From positions 62,001 to 126,000 of the forward strand of contig JAJFKC010000020.1 in assembly GCA_021773435.1 (NCBI GenBank): DNA of 64,000 nucleotides, written 5' to 3'. The position numbers were made by a program, and so were the translations under genes. Below, piece after piece: positions 3-17,323 of the stretch. Source of the DNA: Porticoccaceae bacterium (lineage in GTDB: Bacteria; Pseudomonadota; Gammaproteobacteria; Pseudomonadales; Porticoccaceae). Within the stretch, counting starts at the first letter, position 1. Each line of letters opens with the position of its first letter. The notes under the pieces are model-generated. The model did no database searches. It saw nothing but the letters and a program-made list of their open reading frames with translations, and was not told the origin of the DNA.

Positions 3-1625
3 GGCGAGGTTCGGCGTTCTATTTTGGTTGATTCCCAGGCCGATATTTTGCTCTATGGCAATGCCGAGCGAGCTATATCAGAAGTCGCTCAGCGTTTGTC
101 GAGAGGGCAGGAAGTTACTCAAGTGACAGATATTCGCGGCACCGCCGTGTTACGTAAGGATTTGCCGGAAGGCTGGACGGTGATCGACTCCACCCGTGTT
201 GATCGGCCTGGCAAGGTCGATCCCATCCATAATCCATACGACAGCGACGAAGAACTAGCGGCGGCGACGGGTGGTAAGTGTTCAGTTGGCCGCGATGAAG
301 ATAGTGGTGAACAGGTTCTGCACTTTGTACCTCATCGCCAAAAAATTGATCGCACCAAAAGTGTGATCCGCCTGCCCCATTATCATAAGGTCAAAAATGA
401 TCCGGTGCTCTATGCTCATGCCTCGAGGGCGCTACATCTTGAGACTAATCCCGGCAATGCCAGAGCGCTGGTGCAGCGACATGAAAATATTGAGGTGTGG
501 CTAAATCCGCCACCCATCCCCTTGACCACAGACGAAATGGATGACGTATTTGGCCTGCCCTTTGCCCGCGTCCCCCACCCCAAGTATGACGGCCAACGAA
601 TTCCCGCCTACGAGATGATCCGATTTTCGGTGAACATTATGCGCGGCTGTTTCGGTGGCTGTACGTTTTGTTCCATCACCGAACACGAAGGCCGAATTAT
701 TCAGAGCCGGTCAGAAGACTCTATTATCAGAGAGATAGAGAATATCCGCGATAAGACCCCGGGATTTACCGGTGTGATATCTGACCTGGGAGGCCCCACC
801 GCGAATATGTATAGACTGGCGTGTAAAAGCGCCGAGATTGAGTCCGCCTGTCGACGATTATCTTGTGTTTATCCCGGTATTTGTTCCAATCTTAATACAG
901 ACCACAATCCCCTGATTAGTCTGTATCGTCGCGCCCGCGATTTGCCGGGTATTAAAAAAGTATTGATAGCTTCCGGTTTACGTTACGACCTGGCAGTGGA
1001 ATCACCAGAATATGTCGAAGAGCTGGTCACCCACCACGTCGGTGGCTATCTGAAAATCGCCCCGGAGCATACCGAGGACGGCCCGCTGTCAAAAATGATG
1101 AAGCCCGGCATGGGTGCCTATGATCGTTTTAGCGCCATGTTCGAAAAATACAGTAAAAAAGCCGGTAAAAAACAGTATTTAATCCCGTATTTTATAGCCG
1201 CCCATCCGGGCACGACAGAAAACGATATGGTCGAGTTAGCGCTCTGGCTGAAACGTAATCGCTTTCGCGCTGATCAGGTGCAAACCTTTTACCCCTCCCC
1301 CATGGCCACAGCGACAGCCATGTACCACACCGGTCGCAATCCGCTGCGTGGCTTGAGTTATAAACGGGGCGAGAAAGTAAGCCGGGTGCGGAATCTGAAT
1401 AAGCGCCGTTTACACAAAGCCCTGCTGCGCTACCACGATGCAGCAAACTGGCCACTGATTCGTGAGCACCTAAATTCTTCCGGGCGTGCAGATTTAATTG
1501 GTGATGAAGAGCATTGTCTGGTGCCACGAGAAAGCGCCAATCGACGATCAGCGGGCAGCAAAAAGTATCGGCTGTTTGAAACAAAGCACACCCGCAAAAA
1601 CGCTGTGGGCCGCACACGGCGTTAA
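3..1625 (+). CDS. ygiQ: YgiQ family radical SAM protein (5' end outside window)
   Basis: The reading frame is open from the first bases of the window, so the true start lies upstream; about 540 residues are visible where the family usually has 700 or more. A radical SAM cluster motif CxxxCxxC (CFGGCTFC) lies near residue 215 of the visible part, followed by a TIM-barrel-like core and a basic C-terminal tail of the YgiQ type. The N-terminal visible sequence ([16 protein letters not shown]) is typical of YgiQ. The family is a [4Fe-4S]/S-adenosylmethionine enzyme whose physiological substrate I do not know. Downstream genes are on other strands or under their own promoter, so no operon partner is visible. 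Confidence 0.93.
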
Positions 1626-1700: not shown

Positions 1701-2021
1701 CTAATGGGTTTTCTTTAGTCGACGATTGCCGGCTTTTTCGGGATGATATTCAAAAAACCAGTTTTCGAGCGCCTGTTGTTTATCACGCTCATGTTGTTGC
1801 TGCGCTGTTTTTGTGCTGTTTTTGCACAAATCGAGTGCTATCTGGTTAGCGCGCTGTTGTTTATCTTGGTCGTGTTCAAGCAAATCCTCTGACACCAACT
1901 GCTGTATAAAAGCTAGCGTTACTGCTTCACATTTGAGATCGATAGTTTCGGTATTAGCCGTCGAACAGAAGAGGCTGGCAAGCGAGATGATGATGGTTGG
2001 GAGTGAATGATTCAGTGACAT
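1701..2021 (-). CDS. small exported protein of unknown function
   Basis: A 106-residue frame read from ATG at 2021; a TTG two codons upstream (2027) is an alternative start. I do not recognise a family. Residues 1 to about 24 form a plausible Sec signal peptide (hydrophobic PTIIISLASLF, then Cys and a small-residue region). The rest is rich in Gln, Lys, Asp and His with two further Cys residues, and looks like a small helical periplasmic protein. No strong ribosome-binding site precedes the ATG. It lies tail-to-tail with ygiQ and divergent from the torF-like porin gene. The signal peptide and coherent charge pattern argue that it is real, but codon or conservation analysis would be needed to be sure. 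Confidence 0.5.
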   Translation of the reverse strand: MSLNHSLPTIIISLASLFCSTANTETIDLKCEAVTLAFIQQLVSEDLLEHDQDKQQRANQIALDLCKNSTKTAQQQHERDKQQALENWFFEYHPEKAGNRRLKKTH

Positions 2022-2110
2022 TAACAATTTACACGCTTTTGATGTCGGGTTCGGGATTGTACCAGCGCATATTTAATACGCATACATAAGCTCAGGTAGG
2101 ACTGATCGGT

Positions 2111-2198: not shown

Positions 2199-2224
2199 GT
2201 GCATTTGTGCACCATACCGGTGCC
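2199..2224 (+). promoter_or_regulatory. NtrC-like enhancer site upstream of TorF-family porin
   Basis: TGCACC-ATACC-GGTGCC at 2208-2224 matches the NtrC dyad consensus TGCACC-N5-GGTGCA at 11 of 12 defined positions. It is overlapped on its left by a second dyad, GTGCATTTGTGCAC, at 2199-2212. The site is centred about 118 bases upstream of the start expected from the sigma-54 promoter at 2308-2323, a normal distance for an NtrC enhancer. Confidence 0.6.
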
Positions 2225-2307
2225 GTATTTTGCGCCAATAACTTACGCTTGCTGTTTTCTCGGTCTATAAGCACTGCTTAATGACAAAAAGCGAGCATTC
2301 TCAATTA

Positions 2308-2323
2308 TGGCACGATCCCTGCT
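2308..2323 (+). promoter_or_regulatory. sigma-54 (-24/-12) promoter for TorF-family porin
   Basis: TGGCACG-ATCC-CTGCT fits the RpoN consensus TGGCACG-N4-TTGCT with one mismatch. The invariant GG (2309-2310) and GC (2321-2322) have the required 10-base gap. Transcription would start near 2334, leaving a leader of about 75 bases before the ATG at 2410. Confidence 0.75.
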
Positions 2324-2409
2324 TTTGGCATATTGAGCGCCAGCGAAGTATTTGCCTGCTGGTTAGGACCTTGTTATAATGTAACTTCTTAAGACCTAGG
2401 GGAAACTAG

Positions 2410-3168
2410 ATGAATATTATGAAAAAAACTCTCGCTGCTACTCTGTTAGTAGCTTCACCGATTGTCGCTGTAGCGGCAGAGGTGAGTGGAAATGTATCTT
2501 TAACTACGGATTATCGATTTCGCGGTATTTCGCAAACCGATACTCAATTAGCTGTTCAAGGGGGTTTTGATGTCGGCTTTGACAGTGGTTTTTACGTTGG
2601 TGTTTGGGGCTCTAATGTGGACTTTGGTGCAGGAGCCGCTCCAGATTTAGAGTTAGATTACTACGCGGGATTCTCCGGTAGTATAAGTGAAGATGTTGGC
2701 TTTGATGTAGGGTATATATATTACGATTATCCTGGCTCAGGCAGTGTTTCTTTCGCACCTTTCAGTTCAGAAAAATTTGATTACGAAGAAGTCTATGCCA
2801 GCGTTTCGTTTAAGGATCTTACTGTAGGTGCAGCTTATTCTGATGATTATTGGTTGGGAAGCGGCGATTTCTACTACGTTTATGGTGATTACTCGTTTGC
2901 GTTACCTATGGATGTATCTCTGGATTTACATTATGGCTATAACGCCTTCGATAACGCTTCTGGTGACTCAGACGCTGAAGACGCTAGCAAAGCCTTTTTG
3001 AGTGGTGATGAGGATAGCTATTCCGATTACTCTATTACCTTGACTAAAGCCGTTGCCGGCGTTGATGTCAGCCTCGCCTGGGTAGATACAAGTTTAAGCA
3101 AATCTGATGTTTTCGGGACAAACTGGGCCGACAGCACAGTCGTTTTTGCGATAAGCAAAAGCCTGTAA
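2410..3168 (+). CDS. TorF family putative porin
   Basis: A 252-residue outer-membrane beta-barrel protein. Residues 1-23 are a classical signal peptide (MNIMKKTLAATLLVASPIVAVAA). The mature protein opens with VSLTTDYRFRGISQT, the signature of the TorF/TIGR02001 group. It then alternates aromatic and Gly/Asp-rich amphipathic strands and ends in an aromatic/hydrophobic strand. A strong ribosome-binding site (AGGGGA) lies 6 bases before the ATG. The family is often annotated as a putative porin; substrates are not established. Its upstream region carries a sigma-54 promoter and an NtrC-like site, suggesting expression under nitrogen limitation (inference). It is followed by a good intrinsic terminator and so is probably monocistronic. 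Confidence 0.88.
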   Translation: MNIMKKTLAATLLVASPIVAVAAEVSGNVSLTTDYRFRGISQTDTQLAVQGGFDVGFDSGFYVGVWGSNVDFGAGAAPDLELDYYAGFSGSISEDVGFDVGYIYYDYPGSGSVSFAPFSSEKFDYEEVYASVSFKDLTVGAAYSDDYWLGSGDFYYVYGDYSFALPMDVSLDLHYGYNAFDNASGDSDAEDASKAFLSGDEDSYSDYSITLTKAVAGVDVSLAWVDTSLSKSDVFGTNWADSTVVFAISKSL

Positions 3169-3221: not shown

Positions 3222-3257
3222 AAAAACGCCGGCTGTTAATTGCCGGCGTTTTTTTGT
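3222..3257 (+). terminator. bidirectional intrinsic terminator after TorF-family porin
   Basis: AAAAACGCCGGC, an 8-base loop, then GCCGGCGT and a T-run. The A-run on the left arm lets it also terminate the convergent VWA gene on the minus strand. Confidence 0.9.
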
Positions 3258-3288: not shown

Positions 3289-4668
3289 TTAGACGGTTCC
3301 GGTCGCAGACTTCAATAAGCTGTCGAGCATTCTCTCCAGATGTTCCAAAGTATTGCAGGTGTTTGCCAGATGGCAGTACGGGCGGTATTTGTACATCACT
3401 GAGTCCCCGGTTTTCCAGAAGTTTTCCGGCTCTGGGTTAAGCCAGATGACTCGCTTGGCCCGCTGGTGGAGCAATTGCATGACTTCACTGCGCGGTGCCA
3501 GGAAATTGTTACGGGCATCACCCAAAATTAGCACGGTGGTTTTATTGTCGATATCATCCATGCACTGGTCTTCGAGATCGAGCAGGGTGGTGCCATAGTC
3601 GGACCCGCCGAGACCGTGTTTGTCCATAATATAATCGATGGCCTGTTCGACGGGCAGATCATCAAAGACATCGTTAACGTCGATCAGGTTGCCGGTGAAA
3701 ACATAAGAGTCGATACGGGTCATCACATCGTTGAGACTGTACACAAACAACAGTAAAAATCGGGCATAGGCCTGGACTGAGCCACTGATATCACACATCA
3801 CCATCAGCCGTGGTTTATCGATGAATTTGGTTTTCCAGTAGGTTTCAAATAACACGCCGTCGTAGGCTGCGTTATGGCGCAGGGTTTTGCGGAAGTCGAG
3901 CTGACCACGGTTTTCCCGTTTCTTCTTCTTTGAATATTGGGTGCTTAGTCGCTTGGCCATTTTCAGCACAAGGTGGTGCATGATATGGAAATCCCGTTGT
4001 TCTACATTCGACAGTTTGGCGCTTTGCAGATGTTCTTCACGGAGATTTCGAGCCGCATTTTTGCCATACATTGATAGCTGCTGTTCGACAAAATCTTTAA
4101 CCTGCTCGGCCAGGTAATCTTTGGCTTCGCGCAAGGCGTCACCTACGCCATCACCGGGACACTCGCCTTTACCGGCTTCGGCAATTTCATTCTGTAAATC
4201 ACGTAAGCCCATTTTCTGCATTATCTGCTGGGAATATAGGCTTTTTTGCGTGAAAAACCAGATGTCGGTGAGACCAACTTCTCGGGCGGCTTTTTTCATT
4301 TCTGTGCTGAGGCTAGCAGCATCGCGATCAAGTAGCATTTTGGCCAGTGGCTGGTCGCCTTTATATTCATCTTTGGGCACCGGTACCGCCTCATCGGCAT
4401 TGGCGCTCGGGGAATTCTTTTGCTCGTGGCCCAATTGCTCAATAGTGTCAAAGGCATTGAAGTAGAAAAATCGGTCAAAACACTCGGCGACTATGTCCTG
4501 TTCCGGCAGCGACTTGGCGAGGCTGACCTCGAAAGCACTTTTCAGAATACTTCGATCGCGATATCCCACCAGGGTCACCGTGCGACTGGTTTCAATGCTA
4601 TCCGAGGGCGAGATATTAACGCCGGCGGCGCGAACCACTTTGTAAAAATCTTCCAGTGTCTGCTGCAT
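3289..4668 (-). CDS. VWA domain-containing CoxE-like protein
   Basis: A 459-residue cytoplasmic protein with no signal peptide or membrane segment. The C-terminal part (about 285-455) is a von Willebrand A domain with a complete metal-ion site: D293-x-S295-x-S297 (DISGS), a later Thr in GSDYGTT, and an Asp in ILGDARN. The N-terminal half is mostly helical and charged, as in CoxE-like proteins. The start ATG has GAGGT 7 bases upstream. It follows the MoxR-type AAA+ gene on the same strand by 59 bases. MoxR/VWA pairs act as metal-chelatase-like or chaperone machines that insert cofactors or remodel partner proteins. No carbon monoxide dehydrogenase or other obvious client is nearby, so the target is unknown. 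Confidence 0.88.
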   Translation of the reverse strand: MQQTLEDFYKVVRAAGVNISPSDSIETSRTVTLVGYRDRSILKSAFEVSLAKSLPEQDIVAECFDRFFYFNAFDTIEQLGHEQKNSPSANADEAVPVPKDEYKGDQPLAKMLLDRDAASLSTEMKKAAREVGLTDIWFFTQKSLYSQQIMQKMGLRDLQNEIAEAGKGECPGDGVGDALREAKDYLAEQVKDFVEQQLSMYGKNAARNLREEHLQSAKLSNVEQRDFHIMHHLVLKMAKRLSTQYSKKKKRENRGQLDFRKTLRHNAAYDGVLFETYWKTKFIDKPRLMVMCDISGSVQAYARFLLLFVYSLNDVMTRIDSYVFTGNLIDVNDVFDDLPVEQAIDYIMDKHGLGGSDYGTTLLDLEDQCMDDIDNKTTVLILGDARNNFLAPRSEVMQLLHQRAKRVIWLNPEPENFWKTGDSVMYKYRPYCHLANTCNTLEHLERMLDSLLKSATGTV

Positions 4669-4727
4669 GATGCTTACCTCGTTACGTTAAGCTTGTCGCG
4701 TTATATCTGTTATTTGGGGCCGACCGA

Positions 4728-5681
4728 TTACTGCGCCCCAGAGCGCTTATGGGCCTTGTTAATGAAACTCATCGTGTGGTCGCGCATGCCCTCGATATCA
4801 GTCTCAAATTTCAACAACACATTGAGTGTTTGTTTGACCATGGCGGGGTCCAGCTGTTCGCTATGTAGCAGCAGCAGTGTTTTTGCCCAGTCGATGGTTT
4901 CAGAAATAGAGGGCACTTTTTTGAGGTCAAGGGCGCGTACATCCTGGACGAAACTGACGATCTCTTTGCGCAGGATTTCGGGCAGATCCGGTACCCGGCT
5001 ACTCAAAATCTTGCTTTCCAGTTTTTCGTCTGGGTAGGGCACATAGAGGTGCAGGCAGCGCCGTTTCAGGGCGTCGCTCATTTCCCGGCTGTTATTGCTG
5101 GTCAGAAACACCAGGGGCTTGATGGTTGCTTTGATGGTACCGAGTTCAGGGATGGAAACCTGGAATTCAGACAATACTTCGAGCAGGAAAGCTTCGAATT
5201 CGTGATCGGATTTATCAACTTCATCGATTAGTAGTACACAGCCTAGCTCTTCGTGCAGGGCCTGGAATAAAGGACGCGGTTCGAGAAAGCTCTCAGAAAA
5301 GAACAGGTCTTCATGGCTGTGGATTTTATCCATAGATTCCCGCAGCCCGGTGGCACCCTCTAACAGGTCGCCCAGTTTGTCTTTGAGCAGTTGGGTATAA
5401 AGCAGCTGTTTGGCATATTTCCACTCATAGAGTGCTTTGGATTCGTCAAGACCCTCATAGCACTGCAGGCGTACCAGAGGCACATCGAGAATCTCAGCCG
5501 TGGTTTTTGCTAGCTCGGTTTTGCCAACGCCGGCGGGGCCTTCAACCATCACCGGTTTTTGCAAATTGTGGGCGATATACACGCAGGTGGCGATTTGTTC
5601 ACTACAAATATACTTAGCCTCTTCAAAGCGGTTCTTAATTTCTTCGACCGACTGAAATTTATCTTGATACAGCGTCTTCAT
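4728..5681 (-). CDS. MoxR family AAA+ ATPase
   Basis: A 317-residue AAA+ ATPase. Walker A is G48-PAGVGKT-55 and Walker B is VLLIDEVDKSD; a sensor-1 segment (FLTSNNSRE) and an arginine-rich segment (ALKRRCLHLYV) follow, as in MoxR proteins. It is first in a two-gene minus-strand unit with the CoxE-like VWA protein. In known pairs the ATPase hexamer works on a substrate recruited by the VWA partner. The ATG is preceded by AGGT at a rather long spacing. The family is certain; the client is not known. Confidence 0.92.
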   Translation of the reverse strand: MKTLYQDKFQSVEEIKNRFEEAKYICSEQIATCVYIAHNLQKPVMVEGPAGVGKTELAKTTAEILDVPLVRLQCYEGLDESKALYEWKYAKQLLYTQLLKDKLGDLLEGATGLRESMDKIHSHEDLFFSESFLEPRPLFQALHEELGCVLLIDEVDKSDHEFEAFLLEVLSEFQVSIPELGTIKATIKPLVFLTSNNSREMSDALKRRCLHLYVPYPDEKLESKILSSRVPDLPEILRKEIVSFVQDVRALDLKKVPSISETIDWAKTLLLLHSEQLDPAMVKQTLNVLLKFETDIEGMRDHTMSFINKAHKRSGAQ

Positions 5682-13351: not shown

Positions 13352-14854
13352 TCAAGAAAGACGATAACCTAACGCTTCGGTCAAATGCTGATCCTCTATA
13401 TTCGTGGTTCCCTCCAGATCGGCGATGGTGCGGGACACTTTTAGAACACGATGGTAACCCCGTGCAGAAAGATTAAGACGACTGATTGCAGTCGTCATCA
13501 TCGCGGCCTGCTGGTCGGTCAGGGCGCAGAACTGTTTCACCTGGGTGGCTTTAAGGTAGCTGTTTTCACACTTCTGGCGATGGTTTTGTCGTCGTCTGGC
13601 TGTGTCGATACGAGCAGCAACAACGGCGCTGGTGTCACCAACATTATCTGAATCTGAGTTACGGGCCTGTGTCCGCGTTAATTGATCATAAGGAATTTGT
13701 GGTACTGAGACCTGAAGATCGATGCGATCGAGCAATGGGCCGGATATTTTATCCCGGTAGCGGGTGACTCGGTCGGGCGAACAGCGGCATCGCGCGCTGC
13801 CCAAATAGCCACAGGGGCAGGGATTCATGGCTGCTACCAGCATAAACTTTGCTGGATACTCGGCACTCGATTGCGCCCGAGAAATCATGATTTTGCCCGA
13901 CTCCAAAGGTTCGCGTAGTACCTCTAATACAGCGCGAGGGAATTCAGGTAGTTCGTCGAGAAATAGCACACCATTGTGGGCCAGGGAAATCTCCCCGGGT
14001 TTCGGGTTGCTGCCTCCACCGACCAGGGCCACTGCCGAAGCGGTGTGGTGGGGTGAGCGGAATGGCCGCTCAAAAAAGTTTTGACGAAGACCATGCCCGG
14101 CGACCGAATAAACCGTTGCGACCTGAAGTGCTGGCGATTCCTCAAGGGCCGGTAGCAAGCCTGGTAAGCGACTGGCAAGCATGGTTTTACCCGTACCAGG
14201 CGGGCCACTAAATAGCAGGTTATGCGCTCCAGCGGCGGCGATTTCCAAGGCCCTTTTAGCCTGGTGTTGGCCAATGATATCGGTCAAATCGGCATTTTCT
14301 ATGGCCCTGTTTTGAGCCTCGAAAACCTGCCGGCTTAGGGATTGGGTCTCCCGTAAATGGGCACAAACTTCGAGTAGGTGGTTTGCGCCATAAACATGCG
14401 TGTGACGCGCTAAAGCGCCTTCATTAGCGTTATCGGTTGGCACGATAAGCTTCCGCTGTCGCTCTCCGCAGGCCAGAGATGTGGGTAGAATCCCTTCGAC
14501 AGGGCGGATATCCCCGGACAAAGCCAGCTCACCGACAAATTCGTACTGGGCCAGTGATTCTGGGGCTAGTTGACCGGATGCGGCGAGAATGCCCAGAGCG
14601 ATAGGCAGATCAAAGCGACCCCCACCTTTTGGCAGATCTGCCGGTGCCAGGTTGATGGTGATCCGTCGTGCGGGGAATTCGAAATGTGAGTTTAGAATCG
14701 CACTGCGGACACGATCTCGGCTCTCCTTAACTGCTGCCTCGGGCAGGCCAACCATGCTGAGGCTTGGCAGGCCGTTTGAAAGATGCACTTCGACCGTGAC
14801 GGCTGGCGAGTTGATGCCAAATTGGGCGCGAGTATGAACGATGGCGAGAGTCAT
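13352..14854 (-). CDS. comM: ComM/YifB family Mg-chelatase-like AAA+ helicase
   Basis: A 500-residue protein of the YifB/ComM family. An N-terminal Lon-protease-like fold (1-180) is followed by a Mg-chelatase-type AAA+ core with Walker A GPPGTGKT and Walker B VLFLDELPEF. Next come a cysteine cluster (NPCPCGYLGSARCRC) and a C-terminal Mg_chelatase_C domain. ComM is a hexameric helicase that promotes branch migration when incoming single-stranded DNA recombines during natural transformation. Together with the type IV pilus genes in this window it fits a transformable organism (inference). In Pseudomonas comM also lies near glnK-amtB, as here, though ubiK, found between them there, is absent. 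Confidence 0.95.
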   Translation of the reverse strand: MTLAIVHTRAQFGINSPAVTVEVHLSNGLPSLSMVGLPEAAVKESRDRVRSAILNSHFEFPARRITINLAPADLPKGGGRFDLPIALGILAASGQLAPESLAQYEFVGELALSGDIRPVEGILPTSLACGERQRKLIVPTDNANEGALARHTHVYGANHLLEVCAHLRETQSLSRQVFEAQNRAIENADLTDIIGQHQAKRALEIAAAGAHNLLFSGPPGTGKTMLASRLPGLLPALEESPALQVATVYSVAGHGLRQNFFERPFRSPHHTASAVALVGGGSNPKPGEISLAHNGVLFLDELPEFPRAVLEVLREPLESGKIMISRAQSSAEYPAKFMLVAAMNPCPCGYLGSARCRCSPDRVTRYRDKISGPLLDRIDLQVSVPQIPYDQLTRTQARNSDSDNVGDTSAVVAARIDTARRRQNHRQKCENSYLKATQVKQFCALTDQQAAMMTTAISRLNLSARGYHRVLKVSRTIADLEGTTNIEDQHLTEALGYRLS

Positions 14855-15006: not shown

Positions 15007-15510
<504 letters not shown>

Positions 15511-15541: not shown

Positions 15542-16810
15542 ATGATGGAAACCGATATTATTGAAATTAAGTATGCGTTGGACACCTTCTATTTCCTGGT
15601 GTGCGGCGCTCTGGTGATGTGGATGGCAGCGGGCTTTACCATGCTCGAAGCCGGCTTGGTGAGAGCCAAAAACACCACCGAAATATTGACTAAAAACGTC
15701 GCGCTTTACGCGGTGTCCTGTGTCATGTACCTGCTTATGGGTTACACGATTATGTATGGTGGTTCGGCAGATGGTTATCTGCCCGACGGTTGGTTTGGTA
15801 ATAGTATCAGTAATGCTTCGGCTGAAGATGTGCTGGCCGGTGCTGCTGCTGATGCCAGTGATTACACCTACTACTCAGGTGCATCCGATTTCTTCTTCCA
15901 GGTAGTTTTTGTTGCAACGGCCATGTCGATTGTCTCCGGTGCTGTGGCTGAACGGATGAAACTGTGGGCCTTTTTAGCCTTTGCTGTAGTCATGACTGGT
16001 GTGATTTACCCTCTCCAGGGTATGTGGAAATGGGGCGGTGGTTTTCTTGACGCGGCGGGCTTTCTTGATTTTGCCGGTTCAGGTGTGGTGCATATGACCG
16101 GTGCAGCCGGTGCCCTTGCTGGGGTGATTTTACTGGGTGCCAGGAAAGGCAAATACGGCGCTGACGGCTCGATCAAAGCGATCCCCGGTGCCAATATGCC
16201 TCTGGCAGCTTTGGGCATGTTCGTGCTTTGGGTTGGTTGGTTCGGCTTTAACGGTGGTTCTGAACTCAAGGTATCTGATATTGGTGAGGCCAATGCGGTG
16301 GCAGATATTTTTGTCAATACCAACGCAGCGGCAGCAGCAGGGTTAATTGCGGCGTTGGTTATGGCCCGTATTATGTTTGGCAAAGCCGATCTGACCATGG
16401 CCATTAATGGTGCGCTGGCGGGACTGGTGGCCATTACTGCTGAGCCACTGACGCCAGGACCGATACTGTCTACTTTAATCGGAGCTATTGGCGGTGTCCT
16501 GGTGGTGTTTTCTGTTGTTACCATGGACAAGATTCGCATCGATGATCCGGTTGGTGCGATTTCCGTACACGGTGTGGTCGGTATCTGGGGGCTGTTGGCG
16601 GTGTGCCTGAGTAACCCCGACGCAACGTTGCCTGCTCAACTACTGGGCATCGGTGTCATATTTGCCTGGGTGTTTGGCGCCAGTTTGCTGGTCTGGTTTA
16701 TCCTTAAAATAACGATCGGCATTCGGGTTAGCGAAGAAGAAGAATACGAAGGTGTCGACATGTCTGAATGCGGAATGGAGGCTTATCCAGAGTTCAGCAC
16801 AATAAATTAG
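15542..16810 (+). CDS. amtB: ammonium transporter AmtB
   Basis: A 422-residue polytopic membrane protein of the Amt family with 11 expected helices. The N-terminal FLVCGALVMWMAAGFTMLEAGLVRAKNT block and the pore region GSGVVHMTGAAGALAG (first pore His) are present, as is the second pore His in ISVHGVVGIWG. The C-terminal tail (SEEEEYEGVDMSECGMEAYPEF) is the usual GlnK-responsive cytoplasmic extension. No N-terminal signal peptide is obvious. Two adjacent ATG codons exist; I use the first, with GAGG upstream. Operon with glnK, closed by a strong terminator. Confidence 0.96.
   Translation: MMETDIIEIKYALDTFYFLVCGALVMWMAAGFTMLEAGLVRAKNTTEILTKNVALYAVSCVMYLLMGYTIMYGGSADGYLPDGWFGNSISNASAEDVLAGAAADASDYTYYSGASDFFFQVVFVATAMSIVSGAVAERMKLWAFLAFAVVMTGVIYPLQGMWKWGGGFLDAAGFLDFAGSGVVHMTGAAGALAGVILLGARKGKYGADGSIKAIPGANMPLAALGMFVLWVGWFGFNGGSELKVSDIGEANAVADIFVNTNAAAAAGLIAALVMARIMFGKADLTMAINGALAGLVAITAEPLTPGPILSTLIGAIGGVLVVFSVVTMDKIRIDDPVGAISVHGVVGIWGLLAVCLSNPDATLPAQLLGIGVIFAWVFGASLLVWFILKITIGIRVSEEEEYEGVDMSECGMEAYPEFSTIN

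Positions 16811-16981: not shown

Positions 16982-17323
<342 letters not shown>

Follow-up and report, generated by a model that had tools for sequence, protein, structure and literature searches.

The torF locus and its upstream region

The analyzed stretch of DNA, 64,000 nucleotides of a Porticoccaceae bacterium contig which we refer to as the window, carries at positions 2410-3168 of the plus strand a gene, torF, that encodes a putative porin of 252 amino acids. A first-pass annotation had placed the product in the TorF family, and profile searches agree, with scores of 178.1 bits against TIGR02001 (cut-off 47.15) and 133.9 against PF09694 (cut-off 24). In a Pfam search at E values up to 1, PF09694 was the sole match, and hence none to the KdgM/NanC family was obtained. 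On the left, torF is preceded by ygiQ (24-1625, plus strand, TIGR03904) and a small ORF (1701-2027, minus strand), an order common to related loci L021 and L032-L036. On the right lie, on the minus strand at 3289-5681, genes for proteins of 459 and 317 amino acids, which we take to be VWA and MoxR proteins; the same order occurs in L033-L036, L151 and L251, and the pair also adjoins the torF gene of a divergent type (type B, described below) in L236 and L245-L248. Between torF and this pair, a hairpin at 3222-3253, reported on the minus strand, is followed by a T run on the plus strand; it is a probable terminator, suggesting that torF is probably transcribed as a single gene. The genome also has a second TorF gene (contig C2, 3117-3773; G000, loci L002 and L150), 35% identical to the first. 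This second gene has no -24/-12 promoter, and no glnK, amt or urt gene was found within the 10 kb examined around it.

Upstream of torF, the annotation had described a -24/-12 promoter of the sigma-54 type and a near-perfect NtrC dyad, and both are present. The promoter, TGGCACGATCCCTGCT, occupies 2308-2323 of the plus strand, where it reads TGGCACG-N4-CTGCT; it has a single mismatch to TGGCACN5TTGCW, with the GG and GC elements at the right spacing. The dyad, TGCACC-ATACC-GGTGCC, lies at 2208-2224 of the same strand and agrees with 11 of 12 consensus positions. Based on the -12 C at 2322, a sigma-54-dependent start would fall near 2334, and this places the dyad center (2216) approximately 118 bases upstream of the start and 194 bases upstream of the torF ATG at 2410. 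A distance of this size is an enhancer distance, the median in our scoring set of relatives being 115 bases.

Taken singly, each motif occurs in the window at close to its expected frequency: with at most two mismatches allowed, we counted 46 -24/-12 matches against 40.3 expected, and 2 NtrC dyads against 2.7 expected. We therefore rejected these counts as support for the promoter, and they are what can be said in favor of the torF motifs being chance matches. The statistics of the composite argue against chance. A strict NtrC plus -24/-12 pattern, composed after the site had been seen, occurs once in the 3.4-Mb genome, upstream of torF, and not at all in the backward control, while TGGCAYN6TGCW alone occurs at 41 sites in the genome compared with 10 in the control. 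The composite score before torF, calculated with approximate position weights for both motifs based on published consensus frequencies, is 33.8, and a score of at least 30 is reached in 0.05% of dinucleotide shuffles. Given these values and the conservation across relatives described below, which already contradicts it, we regard a chance origin of the motifs as almost certainly wrong.

At 2352-2380 of the plus strand, the region also contains TTGCCT-17-TATAAT, a match to a sigma-70 promoter in 10 of 12 positions whose -10 element is extended (TG-T-TATAAT). This sigma-70-like site is closer to the ATG than the -24/-12 element and could be a basal promoter. If torF were mainly, and always, expressed from it, with a leader of about 24 bases, the sigma-54 site would be a relic of an operon. 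In aligned upstream regions, close relatives show weak likeness to the sigma-70-like site and operon relatives little; the -24/-12 columns are invariant in 10 relatives, whereas the -10-like stretch is variable. In addition, a sigma-70 promoter could act jointly with the sigma-54 promoter, as in the case of enteric glnA, where the p1 and p2 promoters act together. We thus consider it highly unlikely that the sigma-70-like site is the main promoter of torF.

Profile searches of the window's genome revealed one NtrC protein, which at 737 bits exceeds the cut-off, along with a single RpoN (471 bits). Three more NtrC-like sigma-54 activators score 309-416 bits, under the NtrC cut-off, which makes it conceivable that torF is activated by a regulator other than NtrC.

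Conservation of the composite among TorF genes

We assembled TorF genes from a set of named relatives, limited to the best 80 of 168, from the window's family (TorF in 82 of 98 genomes) and from the class (TorF in 100 of 187 genomes). Starting from 231 loci and 239 TorF frames, we removed 6 frames without a start codon, 10 duplicate proteins and 5 with less than 250 bases upstream, leaving 218 upstream regions. The class-wide set comprises 80 regions at higher-scoring places; 39 lower-scoring ones are outside the promoter count, and a few low-scoring places were left out.

A composite score of at least 24 is found in 97 of the 218 upstream regions (the named relatives among them being limited to the top 80 of 168), compared with 0.09% of dinucleotide shuffles and 4 of 789 control genes, which are other genes of the same loci. 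The two motifs are thus conserved upstream of TorF genes, the outcome on which the first-pass annotation had made its promoter claim depend. With the threshold set at 20, the composite is present in 52/68 regions of the family sample, 43/79 of the class sample (higher-scoring places) and 21/71 of the named relatives (from the best 80 of 168). When ten near-relative upstream regions are aligned, few columns ahead of the ATG are invariant, and these include the -24 TGG and the -12 TGC. Relatives have dyads at a similar distance, but the NtrC site shifts and varies more than the -24/-12 element among the nearest of them.

Several observations count against control of this kind. Among TorF genes adjacent to glnK or amt, 31 of 103 score below 24, and for two detached orthologues, L007 and L017, no good -24/-12 element was found upstream. 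TorF genes found neither next to glnK nor at the new site described below mostly lack the composite, 28 of 100 scoring at least 20. An independent-pair test on a TorF tree, from which proteins longer than 330 or shorter than 170 amino acids are omitted, found glnK adjacency and promoter not to be significantly associated (median p of 0.6-1), with few informative pairs.

The glnK- or amt-adjacent genes scoring below 24 include those of L077, L083 and L085 (Cycloclasticus and Methylococcaceae MAGs), where a torF-glnK-amt order is accompanied by an NtrC-like dyad without a -24/-12 element, and torF may be driven there by another promoter type or activator. In L222 and L223, the divergent neighbor of torF on the minus strand has a very strong composite of its own (32.9 and 37.0), and may share the dyad with torF.

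Linkage of TorF genes to glnK-amtB and to urea transport genes

TorF genes lie directly before glnK or amt in 103 of the 218 cases (with the same limit of 80 out of 168 named relatives), in 36 of the 79 higher-scoring TorF genes of the class set and in 12 of its 39 lower-scoring regions. L037, a Porticoccus sp. MAG, has the order yifB, torF, glnK, amtB, glnK, xerC, and L012, a shorter stretch, has yifB, torF, glnK, amtB. The window contains the same yifB, glnK, amtB, glnK, xerC block without torF, which is found 12.7 kb away; in the window, unlike in L037 and L012, torF does not stand directly upstream of glnK-amtB as nlmA does in the operon described below. Here, yifB (13352-14854, minus strand, TIGR00368) is the left neighbor of the presumed ancestral torF-glnK-amtB site. 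It is followed on the plus strand by an NtrC-like dyad (AGCACTGAATGTGTGCA, 15064-15080), a -24/-12 promoter (TGGCATATTTCATGCT, 15120-15135), glnK (P-II; 15172-15510, with the start chosen by us at 15172), amtB, an ammonium transporter of the marine subtype (15542-16810; TIGR03644, 672 bits against a cut-off of 514), and a second P-II gene (16985-17323), in the same order as in L037. The annotation's remark that glnK-amtB in the window carries the same promoter type as torF is therefore accurate. Two P-II matches were seen in 19 of the 20 genomes searched.

The new place of torF, from ygiQ and the small ORF to the presumed VWA/MoxR pair, is common to L021 and L032-L036. At this site, 11 of 13 torF genes, both types pooled, have a composite score of at least 20. 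Before glnK, a -24/-12 score of at least 13 is reached in 13 of 14 genomes that lack torF there (the window included), compared with none of the four genomes in which torF precedes glnK, where the best score between the two genes is 11.0. These scores suggest that control was mostly kept on both halves. On the simplest reading, the torF of the window once headed a torF-glnK-amtB operon and became detached from it; since the operon order is widespread, we infer that the move was out of the operon. The gene would have been relocated in an ancestor of the window's and related genera and would have retained its NtrC/sigma-54 control. Retention of control after leaving the operon suggests selection on regulation itself, beyond operon inheritance. 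Elsewhere, a TorF gene on an Azoarcus plasmid, at the one of three places in the record that was examined, is not near glnK-amtB.

Motif conservation, synteny with glnK-amtB and the presence of NtrC and RpoN in the genome give good support to the regulatory part of the first-pass annotation, and we consider it very likely, from these features of the DNA, that torF is controlled by NtrC and sigma-54.

Some members of these genera carry a very different TorF at the new site, only 23-28% identical to that of the window and again preceded by a -24/-12 element and NtrC-like sites. We assigned this type B with an HMM built from seven loci. Type-B torF follows the urea transporter genes urtD-urtE; L249 (G007) has the order urtD-urtE-torF-glnK-amtB, and L250 (G019) has the same order with only urtE within the stretch examined. 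Among the 98 family genomes, UrtE scores over the cut-off in 21/21 with type B and in 7/77 others (Fisher 9e-16, uncorrected for descent). Within genera, type B and UrtE are jointly present in two genomes and jointly absent in four of g1, present in three and absent in four of g6, and present in three and absent in one of g12, some of these genomes being incomplete; in g10, four genomes have type B and UrtE, and three have UrtE only. Type B lies together with urt genes, 1 to 17 kb apart, in 17 of the 21 genomes within the stretches examined, and the class sample has six type-B genes, three of them with urt genes on the stretch examined. In the window's genome, neither type B nor UrtE was found.

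A composite score of at least 24 is present before 17 of 26 distinct type-B genes with upstream sequence. Counting against the pattern, the four type-B members of g10 have no -24/-12 element, and in g9 type B precedes glnK-amtB, with urt either about 17 kb distant or on a different contig. Between urtE and type-B TorF, L245-L248, L236, L298, L304 and L305 encode a glycine-rich protein of roughly 330 amino acids; the three that were tested gave no NCBIfam match at 1e-8.

Predicted barrel, putative role and known systems

An AlphaFold model of TorF, built with 56 sequences, has a mean pLDDT of 90.4 and 12 long strands, a confidently predicted 12-stranded barrel. The closest solved folds are KdgM (4pr7; Z 17.3, rmsd 2.3 over 164), NanC (2wjq; Z 16.3) and a third oligogalacturonate porin (16.1), while other barrels reach at most 14.7; these matches to the model indicate a 12-strand barrel and nothing further. 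A sequence search of solved structures with the single TorF protein produced just two non-relevant matches at E 0.1, and a search with a TorF profile gave at best a marginal OprD stretch (E 0.006). The model matches the monomeric 12-stranded KdgM/NanC porins at Z scores of 16-17. The pores of those porins are basic and serve for acidic sugars, whereas the TorF strands are acidic, with 13 D/E compared with 2 K/R in the strands alone. Once the first 22 residues are removed, the net charge of the protein is -29, the median for TorF proteins of 200-300 amino acids being -27. If the acidic strand residues of the model face the pore, a preference for cations such as ammonium would be expected. Nine residues (Y35, R38, Q42, W66, S68, E81, D83, G87 and E127) are invariant in all 56 sequences.

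Five gammaproteobacterial loci, clam symbionts among them, have two complete TorF domains in one frame of 462-489 amino acids (L084:516-1916, L088:1038-2444, L075:1089-2555, L074:27-1493 and, on the minus strand, L153:2942-4327). Four of these genes have a composite score of 20.9-25.6, the region upstream of the L074 gene being too short, and an AlphaFold model of a two-domain TorF protein is poor (pLDDT 43.7).

Given a nitrogen-type switch and many relatives that lie beside ammonium or urea uptake genes, TorF probably lets a simple nitrogen source in. Under nitrogen limitation, NtrC on the dyad at 2208-2224 would activate sigma-54 RNA polymerase at 2308-2323, torF would be expressed, and the 12-stranded outer-membrane barrel would be made; this barrel would let ammonium, or a nitrogen compound of comparably small size, reach the periplasm, from which AmtB would take it up. 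The first-pass annotation had suggested that the porin may admit a nitrogen source, and this part of it is supported by association, through the position before glnK or amt and the tracking of urt by type B.

A gene under the same control could instead encode a protein that adjusts the outer membrane in starvation, as a permeability, export, receptor or structural component, with no nitrogen cargo. It would fit such a role that the TorF model matches many functionally unrelated barrels (Z 12-14.7), that very different sequences occupy one site, as might suit surface proteins, and that the authors of a Herbaspirillum seropedicae study put NlmA most probably in the periplasm (PMC3023670). The coupling to glnK-amtB and the occurrence of type B with urt point instead to nitrogen uptake itself, and the invariant polar residues R38, Q42, E81, D83 and E127 suggest a specific channel. 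We consider a role without nitrogen cargo unlikely.

Our preferred account, in which torF is controlled by NtrC and sigma-54, encodes a barrel for a nitrogen compound and was detached from the glnK-amtB operon, is likely as a whole. That the putative TorF channel carries some small nitrogen compound across the outer membrane we judge, from genomic context, reasonably likely; ammonium in particular as the cargo of the window's TorF type would be plausible but somewhat doubtful. General porins are usually taken to account for how very dilute ammonium and urea cross the outer membrane, and since ammonia is generally considered to cross these, a dedicated channel would not obviously be needed. More tentatively still, TorF proteins might act within the NtrC regulon as outer-membrane gates matched to their partners, with the glnK-amtB type, which has an acidic wall, admitting ammonium, the urt-linked type admitting urea, and the two types interchanging at one site behind the same kind of promoter. 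If so, the outer-membrane step of nitrogen acquisition would be specific and under regulation, and general porins would not suffice to explain it. A family that has no cargo ascribed to it, is often controlled by NtrC/sigma-54 and accompanies AmtB or Urt offers a direct, testable candidate.

The TorF family is presumably named after torF of Shewanella. The Shewanella gene, SO4694, is listed as an outer-membrane porin of the TMAO reductase system (PMC5955497). The torF of the window shares the family model with it and is linked to nitrogen control instead of to the TMAO system described there, the identified neighbors in the window being non-tor genes. In the open-licence literature, a search on TIGR02001, Gcw_chp and TorF found gold-nanoparticle work only, and TorF by name was not found tied to NtrC.

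The closest parallel by position is nlmA (orf1)-glnK-amtB of H. seropedicae, which is reported to be NtrC-dependent and 21-fold up under nitrogen limitation (amtB::lacZ); NlmA was detected in membrane extracts under nitrogen limitation, its authors favoring the periplasmic location noted above (PMC3023670). This operon and the TorF operon have the same gene position and putative or reported NtrC control, a likeness of position and regulation. Whereas nlmA is described there as lying within the glnK-amtB operon, the torF of the window is detached and probably transcribed alone. The annotation had called TorF an orphan family; the family has no assigned cargo, but with an NtrC-dependent gene reported in the same position it may be less of an orphan than stated. 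FmdC, an outer-membrane porin that serves amides and urea and whose gene accompanies that of a nitrogen-source transporter (PMC10781810, PMC11064514), offers a further parallel to the proposed TorF channel. With nlmA-glnK-amtB and FmdC already known, the general kind of system has precedents; the new elements are how widely NtrC/sigma-54 control extends over TorF genes, its retention by a detached gene, and a second type that follows urea transport.
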